Positions 3,964 to 13,493 of a stretch of DNA of 21,347 nt are shown here, one piece after another. Each line of letters begins with the position of its first letter. Positions within the stretch are counted from its first letter, which is position 1. Both the position numbers and the translations under genes were made by a program. The notes beneath the pieces are model-generated. The model did not search any database. It was not told where the DNA came from and saw nothing but the letters and a program-made list of their open reading frames with translations. The stretch comes from a virus. The stretch is from IMG/VR virus record IMGVR_UViG_3300037222_000123, positions 1 to 21,347 of that record; one strand, written 5' to 3'.

Positions 3964-4953
3964 ATGGGCCGCATTCAAAAAGTGAAGATGATTCTGACCG
4001 AGAACCTTGTGCCAGAGAAGGCAGAGTTCGGTAAGGTGTTCGTGTGCAAAGACACTCAGCAAGTCTGGGTGACAGCACTCAGCGGGGAAGTGCTCAATCT
4101 GTCTGACTTGCTTGAAGGCAAGACTGCAACAGTTCGCACGCCTGGTCCGCAAGGTGCTTCTGGAAGAGACGGTGTTGACGGCAGCAATTCTACAGTGCCG
4201 GGGCCGCGAGGGAATGTAGGTGAAGCAGGCAGAGATGGCAAAGATTCAACAGTGCCTGGGCCGAAGGGAGACAAAGGCGACAGGGGAGACAAAGGCGACA
4301 AGGGAGATGACGGCAAAGATTCTGTTGTGCCGGGGCCAGCTGGAAGAGACGGTCATGACGGCAAGGATTCAACCGTTCCCGGACAGAAAGGTGAGCCTGG
4401 CACGGCTGGAAGAGACGGAGCTGACTCAACAGTTGCTGGACCTCGCGGACTTCCGGGGAGAGACGGAAAAGACTCAACAACTCCTGGACCTCGAGGACTG
4501 AAAGGTGATTCTGGCAGAGACGGACTTGACTCAACAGTTGCCGGATCGCCGGGACGTGACGGGCATGACGGGCACGATGGAAAAGACGGCTCGCGCGGAC
4601 TGCAAGGGATCCCAGGCAGAGATGGAAGCAACGGTCATGACGGAAGAGACGGCGACAAAGGTGACAAGGGCGACAAAGGTGATCGCGGTGCTGCCGGCAA
4701 TGACGGCAAAGATTCTGTTGTGCCGGGGCCGCATGGTGACAAGGGAGAAAAAGGGGAGCGCGGGGATGTCACAGTTATCGGGGACAATGAGCTGCTTGCG
4801 GCTGTTCAGCAACTGAAAGCTGAGAAGACGCGGTGGCTTGCAGCTCTTGCAGTTCAGCAAGAGCGCAATGACAGTCGAAAGCATGATGGCCTGCGATCGG
4901 CAGTAGCGTCCGTACTACGGACTCTGAGGGTGGATTCAAATGTCCACAAATAG
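3964..4953 (+). CDS. Collagen-like phage appendage protein
   Basis: 329 aa with GGAG upstream of the ATG. Residues 1-60 form a small non-repetitive head (KVFVCKDTQQVWVTALSGEV looks like a short beta hairpin, a probable anchor or trimerisation unit). Residues 61-268 are almost all Gly-X-Y triplets, rich in GDKGDKGD, GRDG and GHDG, predicted to fold as a collagen triple helix. The array is broken by eight similar breaks of the form (K/A/L/N)(D/N)S(T/V)(V/T)(P/A)G. Residues 275-329 are a helical C-terminus with coiled-coil character (LLAAVQQLKAEKTRWLAALAVQQ). The gene overlaps the following fibre gene by 14 nt. Collagen-like proteins are common in phage fibres; this one is likely a trimeric stalk or virion decoration. 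The attachment point cannot be told from sequence. Confidence 0.85.
   Translation: MGRIQKVKMILTENLVPEKAEFGKVFVCKDTQQVWVTALSGEVLNLSDLLEGKTATVRTPGPQGASGRDGVDGSNSTVPGPRGNVGEAGRDGKDSTVPGPKGDKGDRGDKGDKGDDGKDSVVPGPAGRDGHDGKDSTVPGQKGEPGTAGRDGADSTVAGPRGLPGRDGKDSTTPGPRGLKGDSGRDGLDSTVAGSPGRDGHDGHDGKDGSRGLQGIPGRDGSNGHDGRDGDKGDKGDKGDRGAAGNDGKDSVVPGPHGDKGEKGERGDVTVIGDNELLAAVQQLKAEKTRWLAALAVQQERNDSRKHDGLRSAVASVLRTLRVDSNVHK
4144..4767 (+). repeat. Gly-X-Y coding repeat array
   Basis: DNA encoding residues 61-268 of the collagen-like protein. It is built from degenerate 9-nt units plus longer units of about 45 nt ending in a DSTVPGP-type break. One 30-bp stretch occurs twice without change, at 4308-4337 and 4701-4730, which points to recent unequal recombination or gene conversion inside the array. 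Such arrays commonly change length between related phages. Confidence 0.8.
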
Positions 4954-7104: not shown

Positions 7105-7536
7105 ATGCTAGTTGAAGAGCTACAGACATTCCTTGCTGCCGCTACCGCAGTCACCGCACTGCTCGGCACTCCGTCCTCGCGTTCTGACAGCACGAACGGG
7201 CTCTTCCCTGTTGAAGCACTCGACGGGCCAGCGCTGACGATGCCGTACATCTGCTACTCACAAGCAGATGGGGAACCACTCGCAGAGACTATGGTTGGTA
7301 CCGCCCCGCTGCGGCAAGCGCACTGGATGCTGTCTTGCTACGGATCAAACTACAAGCAAGCCAAGAAGCTTGCTCAGATAGTGAAAGACACACTGCTTGC
7401 TGTCCCGCCTAATGCTGTCCCAACGACACAGGGGGTATGGTTGAGGAGAGAAGCAGACAGCAAAATTCCGATCGGCAAGGGAACAATGTTCGTGACCGAT
7501 CTCACTTTCCTTGTGATCTTCAATGAAACAGCATAA
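7105..7536 (+). CDS. Tail terminator / tail completion protein (DUF3168-like)
   Basis: About 143 aa from the ATG at 7105. The open frame extends upstream to a TTG at 7042, but the 21 added residues are not family-like, so I choose the ATG. The protein begins MLVEELQTFLAAATAVTALL, the typical N-terminal helix of DUF3168 (lambda gpU-type terminator) proteins. It then has LTMPYICYSQADGEPLAETM, HWMLSCYGSNYKQAKKLAQI (strand then helix), and a C-terminal MFVTDLTFLVIFNET strand, all matching the family fold. These proteins form the hexameric ring that stops tube growth and binds the head-closure protein. The normal neighbour would be the head-closure gene; here the ParB-like and fibre genes stand between them. 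Confidence 0.75.
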   Translation: MLVEELQTFLAAATAVTALLGTPSSRSDSTNGLFPVEALDGPALTMPYICYSQADGEPLAETMVGTAPLRQAHWMLSCYGSNYKQAKKLAQIVKDTLLAVPPNAVPTTQGVWLRREADSKIPIGKGTMFVTDLTFLVIFNETA

Positions 7537-7549
7537 TGCCCGTCACACT

Positions 7550-7672
7550 ATGTGGACATATTGCCACGAGTTTGCGGTAGAAAGACAAGCAAGTGCAGCA
7601 GAAAGACCGGTGGTTGAAGTAGATTCAGGATGTGGCGTCTCACAAGCAGTTGTGTGTCCCTTCCTGCTCTAA
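7550..7672 (+). CDS. Possible 40-aa ORF in the gap before the GIY-YIG gene
   Basis: An ATG-started 40-aa frame (MWTYCHEFAVERQASAAERP then VVEVDSGCGVSQAVVCPFLL) fills most of the 157-nt space between the tail-terminator and GIY-YIG genes. Its cysteines could suggest a small metal-binding protein. There is no ribosome-binding site before the ATG and I recognise no relative, so it may be chance. Otherwise I see no stem-loop or regulatory site in this gap. Confidence 0.25.
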   Translation: MWTYCHEFAVERQASAAERPVVEVDSGCGVSQAVVCPFLL

Positions 7673-7693
7673 AATCAACTCCGAACATTGCTT

Positions 7694-8263
7694 ATGAGAA
7701 GATTCTGCACGTACATGTATTTGCGTGAGGATGCTACACCTTATTATGTTGGAAAGGGTGTTGAGAGCCGTCCTTTCTTTGCATTTCGTACAGTGCCGAA
7801 GCCGAAAGAAAAATCTCGGATATTGATTCAGTTTTGGAGTTCAGAAGCCGAAGCTTTTGAGATGGAGAAATTCTACATTCGGTTGTTCGGACGTAAGGAC
7901 AGCGGAACAGGAATTCTCAGAAACAGAACTGATGGCGGTGAAGGTTCAACTGGCTACAAGCACACTGTGGAAGCACTTGAGAAGTTGAGCAGACCTCGTC
8001 CGTACTTGAAAGAGCGGAATAAAATTATCAAGCCAGGACTGGGAGTAAAGCATCCAGAATTGACTGAGTATTTGAGGCTTCATCCAGAGATTCGCAGTAA
8101 GCCGCGTAGTGCAGAAGCACGCAAGAATATGAGTGCTGCACGGCAAGGCAACAGTAATGCACTCGGCAAGCATTGGAAGTTATCACAAAAGACGCGTGAT
8201 CGGATGAGCGCTGCACAACTCCTCCGCAAAGAAAAAGAGCGTCACAGTTTAGCTATAATGTGA
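7694..8263 (+). CDS. GIY-YIG homing endonuclease with NUMOD3 repeats (free-standing)
   Basis: 189 aa from the ATG at 7694 (a TTG at 7688 is an alternative). The GIY-YIG catalytic domain is intact: YMYLREDATPYYVGKGVESR (residues 7-26) holds the diverged GIY...YVG core, followed by the helix around SEAEAFEMEKFYIRLFGRK with the likely catalytic Glu, and RNRTDGGEG (77-84), a hallmark ending of this subfamily. The C-terminal half has DNA-binding NUMOD3-type repeats: GYKHTVEALEKLS, RSAEARKNMSAARQGNSNALG and KLSQKTRDRMSAAQ. This would nick or cut DNA at intron-less or endonuclease-less alleles. It lies just before the tube gene, 44 nt from its exon 1, and outside the group I intron in that gene. The ribosome-binding site is poor. 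Confidence 0.88.
   Translation: MRRFCTYMYLREDATPYYVGKGVESRPFFAFRTVPKPKEKSRILIQFWSSEAEAFEMEKFYIRLFGRKDSGTGILRNRTDGGEGSTGYKHTVEALEKLSRPRPYLKERNKIIKPGLGVKHPELTEYLRLHPEIRSKPRSAEARKNMSAARQGNSNALGKHWKLSQKTRDRMSAAQLLRKEKERHSLAIM
8254..8259 (+). promoter_or_regulatory. Possible -10 element (TATAAT) upstream of the tube gene
   Basis: A perfect TATAAT lies in the last codons of the GIY-YIG gene, 47 nt before the tube-protein start. The positions expected for a -35 box (about 8230-8237) are A-rich and do not resemble TTGACA. It could provide extra transcripts for the abundant tube protein, but with only one recognisable box this is tentative. Confidence 0.25.
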
Positions 8264-8285
8264 GGGGAGACTCTCACAAATTTTG
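8260..8285 (+). terminator. GAGA-loop hairpin at the end of the GIY-YIG gene
   Basis: GTGAGGG (8260-8266) pairs with CTCTCAC (8271-8277), one pair being G-U, around a GAGA tetraloop. The hairpin includes the endonuclease stop codon and is followed by AAATTTTGT, a short U run. It may be a weak terminator, an mRNA-processing or stabilising stem, or may separate the nuclease from the tube gene. A true terminator here would sit just in front of the essential tube gene, so strong termination is unlikely. Confidence 0.35.
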
Positions 8286-8306
8286 TAACAAGAAAAGAGA
8301 AAAGAA

Positions 8307-8946
8307 ATGCCAACTACTGGACCTTTTGTAGGCTAAACTTTCCTTGGCCTAATAAAACCCACTCTGATTGACTTGGAAGCTGAGATGCTAACAGGGCGGA
8401 AGCTGAAAAGCACCGTGAACGACTAAGTGAGAGGGCGCTCGAAAGAGCGATGCGATAGTCTGAACTCGTGAGAATAAGAAGAATCACGAGAGAGGGATCC
8501 GAAGAGATTCTTCCCGCTGCAAAGCGAGTAACAAGTTTGTAGGGACCACTTTCGAGTTCGAGCCGGTCGGCGGAAATCCGTCCACTCTGACTTCACTTGC
8601 AGGCGTTGAGAATGTCGTTTTTGCTGGCGACAAGGTTGCGACTGACAAGACAACCACGATGCTGTCCGTTGACGGCATTGACACTTACATCGGAGCAACG
8701 AAAGAGCCCGGAACGGTAGACGTGAAATGTTTCTACTACCCCGGTGACTCCTCGCAGATCGCAATTGAGGCGGTCAAGAATGCGGGCTTCGCTGTGCAGT
8801 GTCAAGTGATCTATCCGCTCGGCCTCGGAACCGCGTCGTTCCTCGGCATCGTTGAGAGTGTGACCCGCGGCTTGCCGCTGGCAAAGGTTTGCCCACTTGA
8901 TGTGAAGATCAAAGTCTCAGGCCCAATTACCTACTCTAACGGGTAG
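8307..8946 (+). CDS. Tail tube (major tail) protein, split by a group I intron: join(8307..8334, 8540..8946)
   Basis: Exon 1 encodes only MPTTGPFVG plus the first base of codon 10. Read without splicing, codon 10 is TAA, so unspliced mRNA gives a 9-residue peptide. Joining at the predicted splice sites gives MPTTGPFVG-LGTTFEFEP and a 144-aa protein. The GLGTTF start and the following VENVVFAGDKVATDKTTTML, IDTYIGATKEPGTVDVKCFY and a PGDSSQIAIEAVKNAGFAVQ stretch are typical of siphophage tube proteins, with a (Y/F)PGD stretch as in many lambda gpV-like subunits. It would polymerise into hexamer rings around the tape measure. Frame after 8540 is open, and the upstream TGA at 8461 prevents translation from within the intron. 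Position between tail terminator and chaperones is as expected. Exon joints are inferred. Confidence 0.82.
8335..8539 (+). ncRNA. Group I self-splicing intron in the tail tube gene
   Basis: The core shows the conserved P7 pair: AACGACTAAG (GACTA at 8421-8425) and GCGATAGTCTGA (TAGTC at 8456-8460). Between them is the P8-like hairpin CGCTC-GAAA-GAGCG (8436-8449). P1 is clear: exon TAGGCT (8329-8334) pairs with GGCCTA (8346-8351), leaving the required U-G pair at T8334-G8346, which sets the 5' splice site. Just before it, CCTT of the guide (8342-8345) can pair with AAGG-like exon 2 (P10; A8541-G8544 with 8341-8344), placing the terminal intron G at 8539. Other elements: GCT-GAAA-AGC (8402-8411), P9-like CTCGTGA/TCACGAG (8465-8471/8484-8490), and CGCT-GCAA-AGCG (8515-8526). 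About 205 nt with no ORF inside. The 3' edge could instead be at 8542 or 8524. Confidence 0.82.
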
Positions 8947-8994
8947 AAAGTGTCTGCGATGTGCTCTCTTGCGGCACAGAGGAGATAAGTGTGT

Positions 8995-9345
8995 ATGGGC
9001 AGGCCGAGACTAAGGCCGTTTGAATCTTTGTTTCGCTCTCTACAGCGAAGTGCTGCTGGAGGAAACAGAGACTGCACGCTTTCTTACGAAGAGTTTGTTA
9101 AGTTCACCGCGCTTGATAGGTGTCACTACTGCTGGTCGCCGATTAGGTGGTCAGAGTACAACATCAACATAAACGGTAACGGACACAACCTTGACCGCAA
9201 AGATAGTCTCCGCGGATATACACCTGACAATGTAGTTGTGTGCTGCTCAATTTGCAATTGGCACAAGGGCGGATATTATGACTACGAAACATGGTTTGCA
9301 ATGACAGAAGTTTTGAGGAACAGGAAACAAGGGGGACAGCAATGA
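8995..9345 (+). CDS. HNH endonuclease (free-standing, homing type)
   Basis: 116 aa from the ATG at 8995 (GTG at 8989 is also possible, and AGGAGA at 8980-8985 suits either). It contains a zinc-bound HNH domain: CHYC (residues 43-46), the NGHNLDRKD stretch with the catalytic His (about 62-70), a PDNVVVCC segment, and SICNWHKG with CxxC (84-87) and the trailing N and H. The spacing, RCHYC..., GHNLDR, NV and C..CN, is standard for phage HNH homing nucleases. Its stop overlaps the chaperone start (ATGA), so the nuclease is translationally coupled to a structural gene. It would act as a selfish DNA nickase or double-strand cutter; a role in packaging is less likely here because no terminase is nearby. 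Confidence 0.88.
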   Translation: MGRPRLRPFESLFRSLQRSAAGGNRDCTLSYEEFVKFTALDRCHYCWSPIRWSEYNININGNGHNLDRKDSLRGYTPDNVVVCCSICNWHKGGYYDYETWFAMTEVLRNRKQGGQQ

Positions 9346-9743
9346 AGGTGCTTGACATTCAATCAACAGTCACGCCGGAGATCAGGCTGACAGTGAACAC
9401 GGAAGATGCGGCCGGCAATCCAGTGAGCAAGACTTGGCGTCTTGTGTTTGACTACCGCGCAATCGCAAAAGCAGAAGAAGCAACCAGCCGCGACCTGAAG
9501 AGGATCACTGACTGGAAAGACATCAGCTCCGGCAAAGACTTTCCAAAGATCATTCATGCCGGCTTGAACCGCTATCACAAAGACGTTACGCTGGATGAAG
9601 TGATTGATGCTCTGAACCCGATGGCTCAGCGGCTGTTGAGTGACGAGATTTTCTTCTACATGTTCCCGGGGATGCGTGAGGCAGTAGAGAAAGAAGATGC
9701 TGGCGTAACTGCAAACCCTCAGAAGGCGACTCCTGCCGTTTAG
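9342..9743 (+). CDS. Tail assembly chaperone, short form (gpG-like)
   Basis: 133 aa from the ATG at 9342, which overlaps the HNH stop (ATGA) and has AGGGGGA upstream. A longer frame from 9291 reads into the HNH gene and is rejected. Sequence TWRLVFDYRAIAKAEEATSR, then DFPKIIHAGLNRYHKDVTLD and EVIDALNPMAQRLLSDEIFF is a tail-chaperone signature: beta hairpin, then helices holding the 'RAIAKAEE' and 'H(A/...)L...D.T.(D)EV' patterns. It ends in a flexible tail (DAGVTANPQKATPAV) where the frameshift signal sits. In lambda-like phages this short product and the frameshifted GT product bind the tape measure during tail assembly in a needed ratio. Confidence 0.82.
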   Translation: MKVLDIQSTVTPEIRLTVNTEDAAGNPVSKTWRLVFDYRAIAKAEEATSRDLKRITDWKDISSGKDFPKIIHAGLNRYHKDVTLDEVIDALNPMAQRLLSDEIFFYMFPGMREAVEKEDAGVTANPQKATPAV

Positions 9744-9753
9744 AGGAGCCGCC
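9713..9753 (+). promoter_or_regulatory. Programmed -1 ribosomal frameshift signal
   Basis: The heptamer A AAC CCT (9713-9719) is in the correct zero-frame phase (codons AAC, CCT) and allows both tRNAs to re-pair after a -1 slip. It is followed by a 5-nt spacer (9720-9724) and a hairpin: GGCG, A, CTCCT (9725-9734) pairs with AGGAG, C, CGCC (9744-9753), 9 bp with one A-C mismatch and a 9-nt loop that contains the short-form stop codon. This is the standard layout: slippery site, spacer, stem. Slip leads into the open frame that ends at 10171. Confidence 0.82.
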
Positions 9754-10171
9754 GCATACATGGCTAGAGTTGTGGGCAGTTGCGCGCTACGATCTCGGAT
9801 TATCGTACAAAGAATTTGGTGAGCTGACTCCGGGAATGTTTCATGCACTCTGTCAGCGCAAGCGGATCCGCTATAAGTATGAGCGACTCGCACACGCAAT
9901 GACAGCATCAGCCGTGTACAATGTGCACCGCACAAAAGATTCACCGATCATTGCGCCGATTGACTTCGTAACAGAGCAGACACCAGAGCAAGCAGAGCTG
10001 GCAGAAATCAAGAAGATTATCAAGACTGCGGTCGCTGCTGCGCCGAACGGCACAACACGTGAGACGCTGCTGAAGACGAAGAAGAACGTGATCGCAAGCT
10101 TGAATGCACGCGGCAGAACGGACAGCAAGAAGATATTCGATGAGTGCTGGCCGAGTTTGAAAGAAGAGTGA
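9719..10171 (+). CDS. Tail assembly chaperone extension (gpT part), expressed as a -1 fusion
   Basis: This frame has no proper start. It is open from 9680 (after TGA 9677-9679) and overlaps the end of the short chaperone; its first start-like codon is a TTG at 9770 with no clear ribosome-binding site. The N-terminal part reads through EEPPHTWLELWAVARYDLGL (from 9743), and LSYKEFGELTPGMFHALCQR is the typical T-domain pattern. Slippage at 9713-9719 would add 150 residues (S from codon 9719 on) to residues 1-126 of the short protein, giving a ~276-aa GT protein. The next half is basic and helical (EQAELAEIKKIIKTAVAAAP). Expected role: recruit tube subunits to the tape measure. The gene ends 4 nt before the gp10-like gene. 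Confidence 0.8.
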   Translation, partial: SEGDSCRLEEPPHTWLELWAVARYDLGLSYKEFGELTPGMFHALCQRKRIRYKYERLAHAMTASAVYNVHRTKDSPIIAPIDFVTEQTPEQAELAEIKKIIKTAVAAAPNGTTRETLLKTKKNVIASLNARGRTDSKKIFDECWPSLKEE

Positions 10172-10175
10172 GCAC

Positions 10176-10694
10176 ATGGGAGCAGCGGACACTGCGATCG
10201 AGATTGAAGGACTGAAAGAGTTGCAAGAACTCTTGTCCGAAGATCGGTTGCGGCGCACTACGAAACGCTACCTCACAATGATTGAGAAGAAAGCGGCTGC
10301 ACCTGTTATTGAAGCAATGAAAGCTGCTGTCCCTGATGAGTCTGGTAAGGGCACCGGACACATGGCAGAGACTATCGGGAGCAAGAGCAAGTGGCAGACT
10401 TCCGCTGGTGGTGAGCAGTTGAGCATGAAGATCGGACCGGGGACAGAAGCATATCCTCGAGGCAAAGCTGCTGACATCATTGCCTTCTTCTTAGAGTTCG
10501 GTGCGAACACACGGCTTGGGAAAAGAATTTCTGGAATGGTGCGGTCGCACAAGCGGAAGACTGAGGCACAGCACCAGCTTGACAACATTCCAGCGAAACA
10601 CTTTCTGTATGGTGCTTGGATGTCAAGTAAAGATGCCTGCCTCGCAGCTTTTGTTGAGGCCGGCCAGAACCTTGTAGACAGGTTCAAGGACTAA
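10176..10694 (+). CDS. HK97 gp10-like tail-completion protein
   Basis: 172 aa. It starts with IEIEGLKELQELLSEDRLRR, the 'GL.EL...L' opening of the HK97 gp10 family, then PVIEAMKAAVPDESGKGTGH and MAETIGSKSK, a GPGTEAYPRGKAADIIAFFL segment leading into EFGANTR, and a C-terminal IPAKHFLYGAWMSSKDACLA resembling the family's 'AxPFLrpA...' end. Such proteins act at the head-tail joint or tail completion and normally lie before the terminator gene. Here it lies between the GT chaperone and tape measure, a moved position. The family call rests on motifs; alternative: unrelated minor tail protein. AAGAG precedes the ATG. Confidence 0.7.
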   Translation: MGAADTAIEIEGLKELQELLSEDRLRRTTKRYLTMIEKKAAAPVIEAMKAAVPDESGKGTGHMAETIGSKSKWQTSAGGEQLSMKIGPGTEAYPRGKAADIIAFFLEFGANTRLGKRISGMVRSHKRKTEAQHQLDNIPAKHFLYGAWMSSKDACLAAFVEAGQNLVDRFKD

Positions 10695-10698
10695 AATC

Positions 10699-13161
10699 AT
10701 GGCAGTCATCGGCGAGCTGGTTGTAAATCTGAAAGCGCAGACGGCAGAGTTCACAGACTCTCTCGGAAAATCGAATACACTGCTCGTTGAGTTCGGCGAC
10801 AAAGGCAAAGAAGCCGGCGAGAAGATGGGCACTTCGATGGGTGAAGCGCGCGGCGGCTTGATGTTGACTGAGCACCTGCTCGGTGTTCCTCTTCCGCGTC
10901 ACCTCAACAGTTTGATCGCACAGATTCCCGGAGTCGGCGCTGCATTCGCTGCGATGCTGCCGATTGTTGGTGTGATGCTCGCAATTACTATCATCGCAAA
11001 GCTGATCGAGAAGCACTATGAGCATCTGGAAGTCATCCGCAAGACTCAGAACTCTTTGATAGAGATGAGCGGTGAAGGCGCCAAAGCAATGGGCGCACTG
11101 GATGATAAGGTCCTCGAGGCCAGCAAGACGCTCGATGACTTGACTCATAATAAAGTAGCCGGCCTCAGCGCTGAGCTGAAGCTAATAGATCACAAGTCTA
11201 TTGAAGAGCTGAATGCCTTCCTCGCGCAGTCTACGACGCAAGCTGAGAAGTTTTTCAAGCTTGTGAAGCCGTCATGGTATGAATTCGATCGTGATGTTAA
11301 GGGTGCGGAAGCCGGACTTGAAGATTTTTCCGCGAAGTACAAAGCACTCATTGACAACGGTCAGGTGAAAGAAGCTGGAGAGCTGCTCGCGGGAACACTG
11401 GATGCTGCGAAAGCTAAGCTTGAAGACATGAAGAGCGCAGGAATAGAAGTGCGTGATGAGTTCGGCAACATTGTTGTCGCTGCGAATGAGGTTACGAAGG
11501 GCACAGAGAAAGACATTCAAGCGCAAACTGTAGTTTTGAACCTCTTAAAAGCACAGGCTGATGCAGCGGAGAAGATCAAAGAAATAGAAGAGGATAAAGA
11601 AGCAGCCGCAAGGATTTCTGCTGCTGACAAAGCGCACTCTGAAGAGCAGGCTGGCCGAGAGAGCGCACTGTCGAGCAAGAAGACAAGCGCTGAGATAAAG
11701 GTGAAGATTGCAGAAGAAGCAGCACAGAAAGAATATGCGGCTGGCAAGATCACATCAGAGCAGCTTGCTGCTGCGGAGCAAGCGGCGGCTGACAAGCGCC
11801 TGCAAATAGAGCGCGATTTCACTGAGGCGAAGATCGCGCTAGAGATGAGCAGCAATGATGACGCCGCGACTACCGTTTCTAAAGTGGCTGCGCTCAACGC
11901 TCACCTGCAAGATTTGGAGCTAGAGCACAGAGCTAAACTCTCGAACATTGACAATGAGGCGCAGAAGCGCGATAACACTGCCGCCGAGAAACTCTACACG
12001 GAGAATGAGAACGCCGCCAAAGAGAAAGCAGAAGCGATTGAAACAAGTCTCCGCGGCGAAGAAGCTGTCCGCAAAGCGAATGGCGAGTCCATTGAGAGTG
12101 AAGCACAGGCCTCTATCCGCCTCGGGGAAGTGAAATTGAAAGTTGCGGAATCCGGCATAAAAAGTGCTGCTTCAAGCGGCCTGATTTCTAAGATAGAAGA
12201 GCAGAAGGAATTGAAAAAGATCCTTGTGCAAGAAGAAGCCGACCGTCAAGCTGCTTATGCAAGAGAGCTGACAGCAGCGCAATCGAATGCGGCTGCTCTT
12301 GCTGCTGCTGCGACTGCATCTAAAGGGGACGGAGATGAGGCACAGAAGATCAAAGCATCTAGTGATGCCAGAGCAAAATTGAATGCAATGATCGCGCAGA
12401 ACACTGCTCTAACAGGACAGAATGCTGCTGCGATCAATGCTGCTGACGTTGCAGAGAAGAGAGCACGCGGAGATTTCAGCCAGTGGGTCAAAGACATGCA
12501 TCGTGATTTGCCGACAACTGCAAAGATGCTCCAGACATCCTTTCAAAAAGGGTTTGACAGCGTGAATGCAGGCTTCGCGAAGACGCTCATGACTGGCAAG
12601 GGATTCGGCAAAGAGATGCGGCAAGTCGGACAAGAGCTGCTCCAGTCTGTTATTGAGCAAGAGCTGAAGAAGCTTGAAGTCTATGTGATGGGACTCATTC
12701 AGAAAAAGACAACAGCCGTCACATCAGATGCAGAAGAAGTTGCACAAGCAACAGCGAAAGCAGCCGCGATGAAGACACTCGCAGCGAGTGAAGCTGGTGC
12801 ATGGGCTTTTGAGTCTGTGATGTCAGCAATGCCTTATCCTGGAAACATGATTCAAGCGCCGATCGCGGCTGGCATGGCTGTAGCACAAGCAATGGCCTTC
12901 AACAAAGGTGGTGAAGTTCCTGGATACGGCAGCGGTGATACAGTCCCAGCAATGTTGACGCCTGGGGAGACTGTTGTTACGAAAGCACTGACGGAGCAAG
13001 TCAAGAGCAATGGCAGCAGCCGCGCTGATCGCGGCGGAGACACACATGTGGCTGTGCACGTCCATGCTGTTGATGCGGCCGGCTTTGAGGGCTTGATAAA
13101 GAAGCACTCCTCTATGCTTCAAAAACATGTCACGAGTGCAGTAAGGCGGGCAAACCGATGA
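10699..13161 (+). CDS. Tape measure protein
   Basis: 820 aa. Begins MAVIGELVVNLKAQTAEFTD, the common start of tape measure proteins. A hydrophobic stretch of about 30 residues (74-103: AQIPGVGAAFAAMLPIVGVM and on to LAITIIAKLI) may insert into the host membrane. Residues ~105-560 are long heptad-rich, Ala/Glu/Lys-rich helices. The C-terminus has the well-known end motif KGGEVPGYGSGDTVPAMLTP followed by GETVV (from about residue 736). At about 1.5 angstrom per residue it predicts a tail near 120 nm, an estimate only. No lysozyme or peptidase domain is seen within it. Its stop overlaps the next gene's start (ATGA). It follows the chaperones, as in most siphophages. Confidence 0.9.
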   Translation: MAVIGELVVNLKAQTAEFTDSLGKSNTLLVEFGDKGKEAGEKMGTSMGEARGGLMLTEHLLGVPLPRHLNSLIAQIPGVGAAFAAMLPIVGVMLAITIIAKLIEKHYEHLEVIRKTQNSLIEMSGEGAKAMGALDDKVLEASKTLDDLTHNKVAGLSAELKLIDHKSIEELNAFLAQSTTQAEKFFKLVKPSWYEFDRDVKGAEAGLEDFSAKYKALIDNGQVKEAGELLAGTLDAAKAKLEDMKSAGIEVRDEFGNIVVAANEVTKGTEKDIQAQTVVLNLLKAQADAAEKIKEIEEDKEAAARISAADKAHSEEQAGRESALSSKKTSAEIKVKIAEEAAQKEYAAGKITSEQLAAAEQAAADKRLQIERDFTEAKIALEMSSNDDAATTVSKVAALNAHLQDLELEHRAKLSNIDNEAQKRDNTAAEKLYTENENAAKEKAEAIETSLRGEEAVRKANGESIESEAQASIRLGEVKLKVAESGIKSAASSGLISKIEEQKELKKILVQEEADRQAAYARELTAAQSNAAALAAAATASKGDGDEAQKIKASSDARAKLNAMIAQNTALTGQNAAAINAADVAEKRARGDFSQWVKDMHRDLPTTAKMLQTSFQKGFDSVNAGFAKTLMTGKGFGKEMRQVGQELLQSVIEQELKKLEVYVMGLIQKKTTAVTSDAEEVAQATAKAAAMKTLAASEAGAWAFESVMSAMPYPGNMIQAPIAAGMAVAQAMAFNKGGEVPGYGSGDTVPAMLTPGETVVTKALTEQVKSNGSSRADRGGDTHVAVHVHAVDAAGFEGLIKKHSSMLQKHVTSAVRRANR

Positions 13162-13493
13162 TCTATACTGCGGCAACGAGAGTGAAAAGGAATGCATATT
13201 GCAAGGAGTGGCGGAAAGCTAATCCAGATAAAACCAAAGCTGCCTATTGTGACAGCCGCTACGGCAACGGAGCGCATGTGCATCTTCAGAATCAACTGAG
13301 TAAGCAAAGTCACTGTTGCGCTATCTGTTCTACTGTACTTACAGAGCCGTGCCTAGATCACAACCATGAGACTGGGCAATGGCGCGGTGCCTTGTGCCAT
13401 CAATGCAATCTTGCTCTAGGGCATATTAAAGACAATCAAGAGACCCTTCTAAAAGCAGTGGAATATCTCAAATTTTGGAAGGAGCAAGTATGA
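13158..13493 (+). CDS. Endonuclease VII-type HNH nuclease (probable free-standing homing endonuclease)
   Basis: 111 aa. The start overlaps the tape measure stop and its stop overlaps the DUF2460 start (both ATGA). It has the recombination endonuclease VII fold motifs: CAIC (residues 54-57), LDHNHETGQWRGALC (66-80) with the His-Asn-His active site, then CHQCNLALG (80-88) with CxxC and the zinc-binding pair, and a DNQETLLKAVEYL helix. T4 endonuclease VII itself is a 157-aa Holliday-junction resolvase; such short versions in structural operons are usually mobile nucleases rather than resolvases. The N-terminal basic RVKRNAYCKEWRKANPDKTK is typical. Confidence 0.87.
   Translation: MIYTAATRVKRNAYCKEWRKANPDKTKAAYCDSRYGNGAHVHLQNQLSKQSHCCAICSTVLTEPCLDHNHETGQWRGALCHQCNLALGHIKDNQETLLKAVEYLKFWKEQV

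Follow-up and report, generated by a model that had tools for sequence, protein, structure and literature searches.

A probable programmed -1 ribosomal frameshift at an A_AAC_CCT site in the tail assembly chaperone frames of an IMG/VR viral contig

Positions 1 to 21,347 of IMG/VR virus record IMGVR_UViG_3300037222_000123 (hereafter the window, 21,347 nucleotides in length) contain two overlapping reading frames, the second of which has no start codon of its own near the overlap. The locus raises the question of whether the second frame is translated as an extension of the first by means of a programmed -1 ribosomal frameshift. Such a frameshift joins the G and T frames of the tail assembly chaperones and is widely conserved in long-tailed phages, with a product ratio of approximately 30:1 in lambda (PMC5009743). 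Based on the anatomy of the locus and its conservation in related contigs, we consider it very probable that a chaperone gene of the lambda G/GT type undergoes programmed -1 ribosomal frameshifting here. Judged by its sequence, the signal is of the conserved, canonical -1 type and represents a phage device of a standard kind.

Anatomy of the predicted frameshift

The two frames and the elements of the slip signal are the following:

9342..9743, plus strand: G-like ORF, predicted zero-frame tail assembly chaperone of 133 aa, starting at ATG 9342 and ending at TAG 9741-9743; matches phrog_2115
9713..9719, plus strand: slippery heptamer A_AAC_CCT, the same in five close lineages
9719..10171, plus strand: -1 frame, T-like part of the predicted GT, 150 aa after the N-P-/S-E-G join, ending at TGA 10169-10171; PF06223 match below cut-off
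9720..9724, plus strand: 5-nt spacer CAGAA, from the sequence
9725..9734, plus strand: 5' arm of the probable stimulatory hairpin, GGCG-A-CTCCT with A9729 mismatched; from the fold and compensatory changes
9735..9743, plus strand: hairpin loop GCCGTTTAG, containing the zero-frame TAG; from the sequence and the fold
9744..9753, plus strand: 3' arm of the probable stimulatory hairpin, AGGAG-C-CGCC; from the fold and covariation

A frameshift site of this type is expected to show an in-phase X_XXY_YYZ heptamer in a two-frame overlap, a structure approximately 4-10 nt downstream and a downstream frame without a conserved start of its own. In the window, A_AAC_CCT can be read directly in phase at 9713-9719, with AAC (9714-9716) and CCT (9717-9719) as zero-frame codons. 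The stem begins after 5 nt, its stimulatory role being putative, and comprises 4 + 5 bp, i.e., nine pairs and one A·C mismatch (A9729/C9749). The first ATG, GTG or TTG in the -1 frame after the heptamer is TTG 9770. The initial annotation had described the heptamer, the 5-nt spacer, the 9-bp mismatch-bearing stem with the stop in its loop and an open -1 frame lacking its own start; all of these are present, and the signal was placed correctly to the base. A scan of the window against Rfam gave no match at gathering scores.

The anatomy and its conservation are observed, whereas slippage, its rate and the chaperone function of the products are inferred. The majority of ribosomes would read G through to TAG 9741-9743, and a minority would be delayed by the hairpin (9725-9753) while the P site is occupied by tRNA-Asn and the A site by tRNA-Pro. 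Both tRNAs could then slip back from AAC/CCU to AAA/CCC, after which the proline tRNA would re-pair well and the asparagine tRNA would retain two pairs. Translation in the -1 frame would subsequently read N-P-S-E-G and yield the predicted GT fusion of 276 aa (9342-9719 + 9719-10168). By analogy with lambda, G would coat the tape measure protein, the tail tube protein would be recruited by the T part of GT, and the shift rate would thus set the G:GT ratio.

Heptamers among related contigs

A search of viral contigs (IMG/VR) retrieved seven loci with 76-80% identity in GT, extending from the heptamer itself to the end, and an eighth locus (L023) with around 60% identity in GT and 63% in G. AAACCCT lies in phase and 28 nt from a TAG in all eight. 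A_AAC_CCT is exact in each of the five close lineages, i.e., the window, L001/L028, L004/L025, L007/L031 and L023/L024 (L025-L031 are the same loci as L001-L007). In the seven loci a -1-frame stop lies before the heptamer, so the shift cannot precede it. As the open -1 frame of L025-L031 begins at the heptamer, a shift would have to occur within the final 28 nt ahead of the zero-frame stop, and A_AAC_CCT is the sole canonical heptamer in this stretch.

A wider search with a five-member alignment returned 64 loci; with duplicates removed and the window included, 52 distinct sequences were compared. Canonical X_XXY_YYZ heptamers in their frame overlaps occur 52 times in phase versus three and four times in the other phases, which is why we consider the in-phase heptamer to exceed chance. 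At least one is present in 44 of the 52 sequences, while the scanned overlap of the other eight contains no canonical heptamer, which counts against the reading. The site types are distributed over the 52 sequences as follows:

CCCAAAC alone: 17
CCCTTTN: 12
AAACCCT alone: 9
AAACCCC alone: 2
more than one candidate site: 4
none: 8

Conservation in relatives, which the initial annotation had proposed as a check, is borne out by the five close lineages, all of which keep A_AAC_CCT. The qualification is that distant kin with both frames rely on other heptamers, mostly C_CCA_AAC or C_CCT_TTN, and that the eight sequences above lack a canonical one in the scanned overlap. Where A_AAC_CCN is the sole site, only the pyrimidines T and C occur as N, in agreement with the CCY > CCR rule in E. 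coli. Both site types overlap in L042, which carries CCCAAACCCT, and in L051, which carries CCCAAACCCG; the site comparison further shows AAAAAACCCT in L064.

In a tree of the GT part, the window and L028, L031, L025 and L024, all with A_AAC_CCT, fall in well-supported nested groups (98/86, 100/98 and 100/98 for three, four and five rows, respectively). This A_AAC_CCT group sits inside a larger, mostly C_CCA_AAC group. Given the nesting and the neighbouring lineages in which both sites overlap (CCCAAACCCT, CCCAAACCCG), the slip site probably moved by one codon. The direction from C_CCA_AAC to A_AAC_CCT is likely rather than proved, as many deep branches of the tree are weak, the bootstrap was unsettled and residues beside the slip site were included. 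We offer the overlapping double sites of neighbouring lineages as a simple intermediate. In the full scenario, C_CCA_AAC gave way to A_AAC_CCY one codon downstream, with double sites such as CCCAAACCCT as the intermediate step, and the shared AAC was kept while passing from A-site to P-site codon; we regard this scenario as evenly balanced.

The slip sequence itself can be placed against earlier measurements. All 64 heptamers have been assayed in E. coli, and 61 of the 64 were shift-prone in combination with the IS3 pseudoknot, the three exceptions being A_AAC_CCA, G_GGC_CCA and C_CCG_GGC (PMC4066793). Since A_AAC_CCU is not one of these exceptions, it belongs to the shift-prone heptamers, and the E. 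coli reporters imply that it can shift given a strong stimulator (PMC4066793). Among the ZZN codons, homogeneous ones (CCY, for example) shift more readily than those that are heterogeneous, and the average CCN codon shifts less readily than AAN and UUN codons do (PMC4066793). According to the PRFect paper, annotated phage frameshift sites include all four bases at X, Y and Z, and heptamers with Y=C have already been reported for phage chaperones (PMC10885494). A literature search on AAACCC tail frameshifts returned nothing relevant. On the basis of both studies (PMC4066793, PMC10885494), the A_AAC_CCT type is uncommon but not new; the value first attributed to it as an unusual slip sequence is retained in that the type is less common, but shrinks because Y=C was known and all 64 heptamers had been measured. 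What the locus adds is a well-conserved natural example of an A_AAC_CCY slip site whose A-site codon encodes proline. It also adds approximately 50 related loci with a constant arrangement and interchanged slip sequences, which could serve to train or test frameshift finders.

In 11 of the related loci (L034, L035, L040-L043, L046, L048, L051-L053), the codons GGT GCA are invariant approximately 10 nt before C_CCA_AAC, although Gly and Ala otherwise use several codons in those genes. The GGTG of these C_CCA_AAC loci could serve as an internal Shine-Dalgarno-like stimulator. Such an upstream stimulator was considered for the window as well and rejected: GGTGCA is absent there, though it lies approximately 10 nt before many C_CCA_AAC sites.

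Downstream structure and competing readings

The hairpin region of the window (37 nt) has a predicted stability of -15.0 kcal/mol (z -2.5), which was reached by two out of 200 shuffles. The 40 nt starting 3 nt past the heptamer exceed dinucleotide shuffles in stability in most of the 44 heptamer loci, with a mean z of -1.78 compared to -3.1 for the window. In loci with a short overlap, the downstream stretch averages -12.6 kcal/mol versus -7.1 kcal/mol for stretches elsewhere in GT. No such additional stability is seen downstream of the heptamer in L041, L044, L063, L080 and L086.

Loop lengths differ among loci and MAFFT left the arms unaligned; the arms were anchored by hand. The fourth stem pair is C-G in nine, U-A in two and G-C in one of 12 sequences, counts that come from related, not independent, sequences and lean towards the hairpin because the arms were aligned to the structure. 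At 9733/9745, both sides have changed in L007/L031 (C-G to U-A, compensatory); the pair is U-G in L024 and broken in L051 (C, A). The A·C mismatch is replaced by A-U in L045 and L042. Moreover, the outer GGCG/CGCC helix covaries, being GGUG/CACC in L034 and L045 and GGGG/CCCC in L042, for which the outer pairs and the A-U pair were used after a check by eye and the two innermost bases were excluded.

The covariation of the outer helix is predicted by the long hairpin and not by a pseudoknot (9725-9727/9735-9737 plus 9730-9733/9745-9748), a candidate for a different stimulator. The GGC/GCC pairing around the CTCC segment does extend in L025 (ACGGC/GCCGU), and alternative folds are favoured in longer stretches of L025, L028 and L031. 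We regard a pseudoknot or another fold as an unlikely variant, which leaves the ribosomal shift intact and does not exclude the preferred explanation.

Reinitiation after the TAG, which would yield T as a protein in its own right, is very improbable. A Shine-Dalgarno-like AGAGGAG (9742-9748) overlaps the stop and could serve as a ribosome binding site for the in-frame TTG 9770. Yet this TTG is replaced by CTG or CTT in L004 and L023, the residues before it (LEEPP.TWL.LW) are conserved, and ATG 9760 is out of frame and soon runs into a TGA. In 41 of the 52 sequences there is no ATG, GTG or TTG between the heptamer and the conserved GT domain (ARYD motif), and no start codon upstream of this domain is conserved across the 52.

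Joining of the frames by slippage of the transcript instead of the ribosome is scarcely credible. Four consecutive A residues occur in some relatives (GAAAACCC), but the window has only AAACCC, the C_CCA_AAC sites of relatives lack a long homopolymer, and the phase requirement and downstream structure fit ribosomal slippage. Finally, an error in assembly or sequencing, or a mutation of recent date, that split a single gene would give the same one-base frame offset in one contig; this reading is refuted by the recurrence of the two-frame layout with in-phase heptamers in dozens of contigs from different metagenomes.

Gene neighbourhood and known systems

A programmed ribosomal frameshift of the G/GT type also fits the position of the two frames between the genes for the major tail protein and the tape measure protein, the latter assigned by length and position. 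The flanking genes are:

8540..8946, plus strand: major tail protein gene, main exon, named by position; its relatives lie directly upstream of G in related loci
10176..10694, plus strand: next gene, HK97-gp10-like/neck protein (PF04883, E 1.3e-3; phrog_5, E 9e-8)
10699..13161, plus strand: probable tape measure protein, a long ORF of 820 aa, from length and position only

The 820-aa ORF gave no tape-measure match among family profiles. G of the window matches phrog_2115 ('tail protein') at E 4e-4, and 10 of 12 aligned members match this family (best 4e-6). GT matches PF06223 (Phage_tail_T) weakly, at E 0.011, below the Pfam cut-off; five of 12 and four of six aligned members (9/18) reach E<0.01, with the scores seen still below that cut-off.

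Several mobile-element-like features surround the locus. The major tail protein gene (8308-8946) is interrupted by an insert of 205 nt (8335-8539) resembling a small group I intron, for which Rfam gave no match. Exon 1 ends in GGCT and exon 2 begins with TAGGG, where intron-less relatives read PFVGLGTTFEFE uninterrupted; the AGGCU that closes the exon can base-pair with a GGCCU immediately within the insert, placing a U-G at the splice site. The window (7200-8560) and L001 (approximately 50-1410) are identical over approximately 1.3 kb and drop to 73-82% shortly past the insert, the pattern that recent homing of the intron, with co-conversion of its flanks, would be expected to leave. The identical stretch spans the insert and an endonuclease-like ORF (7688-8263; GIY-YIG by eye). 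An HNH endonuclease-like ORF (8989-9345; phrog_3322, E 4e-11) occupies the interval from the tail protein gene to G and shares an ATGA with the start of G; it is absent from L001. A further small ORF (13158-13493), which by eye resembles an HNH ORF, overlaps both of its neighbours, namely the probable tape measure gene at its end (ATGA) and the following gene at its start. Further upstream, an ORF rich in collagen-like G-x-y repeats (3964-4953; GPKGDKGDRGDKGDKGDDGKD) perhaps encodes a fibre or appendage protein.

Scans of bacterial genomes with the alignments of GT and G found no relatives, nor did the window protein match a collection of cultured phages. The annotated tail assembly chaperones of the cultured Streptomyces phages Gibson and Rooney are matched by a distant GT relative (L069) at E 7e-3, with only 29% identity and not by the window protein; their gene order is as observed here (tail terminator, major tail protein, two chaperone frames, tape measure). 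Related IMG/VR contigs with C_CCA_AAC sites share with the window the GT family, the conserved AAC codon and a similar hairpin. This AAC is the A-site codon at their slip site and the P-site codon in the window, where the site is displaced downstream by one codon. No similarity to the lambda G and T proteins was detected by direct profile comparison. Unlike lambda, the window has A_AAC_CCT as slip sequence with a conserved downstream hairpin, and an extra HK97-gp10-like gene between GT and the tape measure gene. Like lambda G/GT, the two frames lie between the tail tube and tape measure genes in an order resembling V-G-T-H, and they combine a short zero-frame protein with a -1 extension that lacks its own start and an X_XXY_YYZ heptamer near the end of G (PMC5009743).
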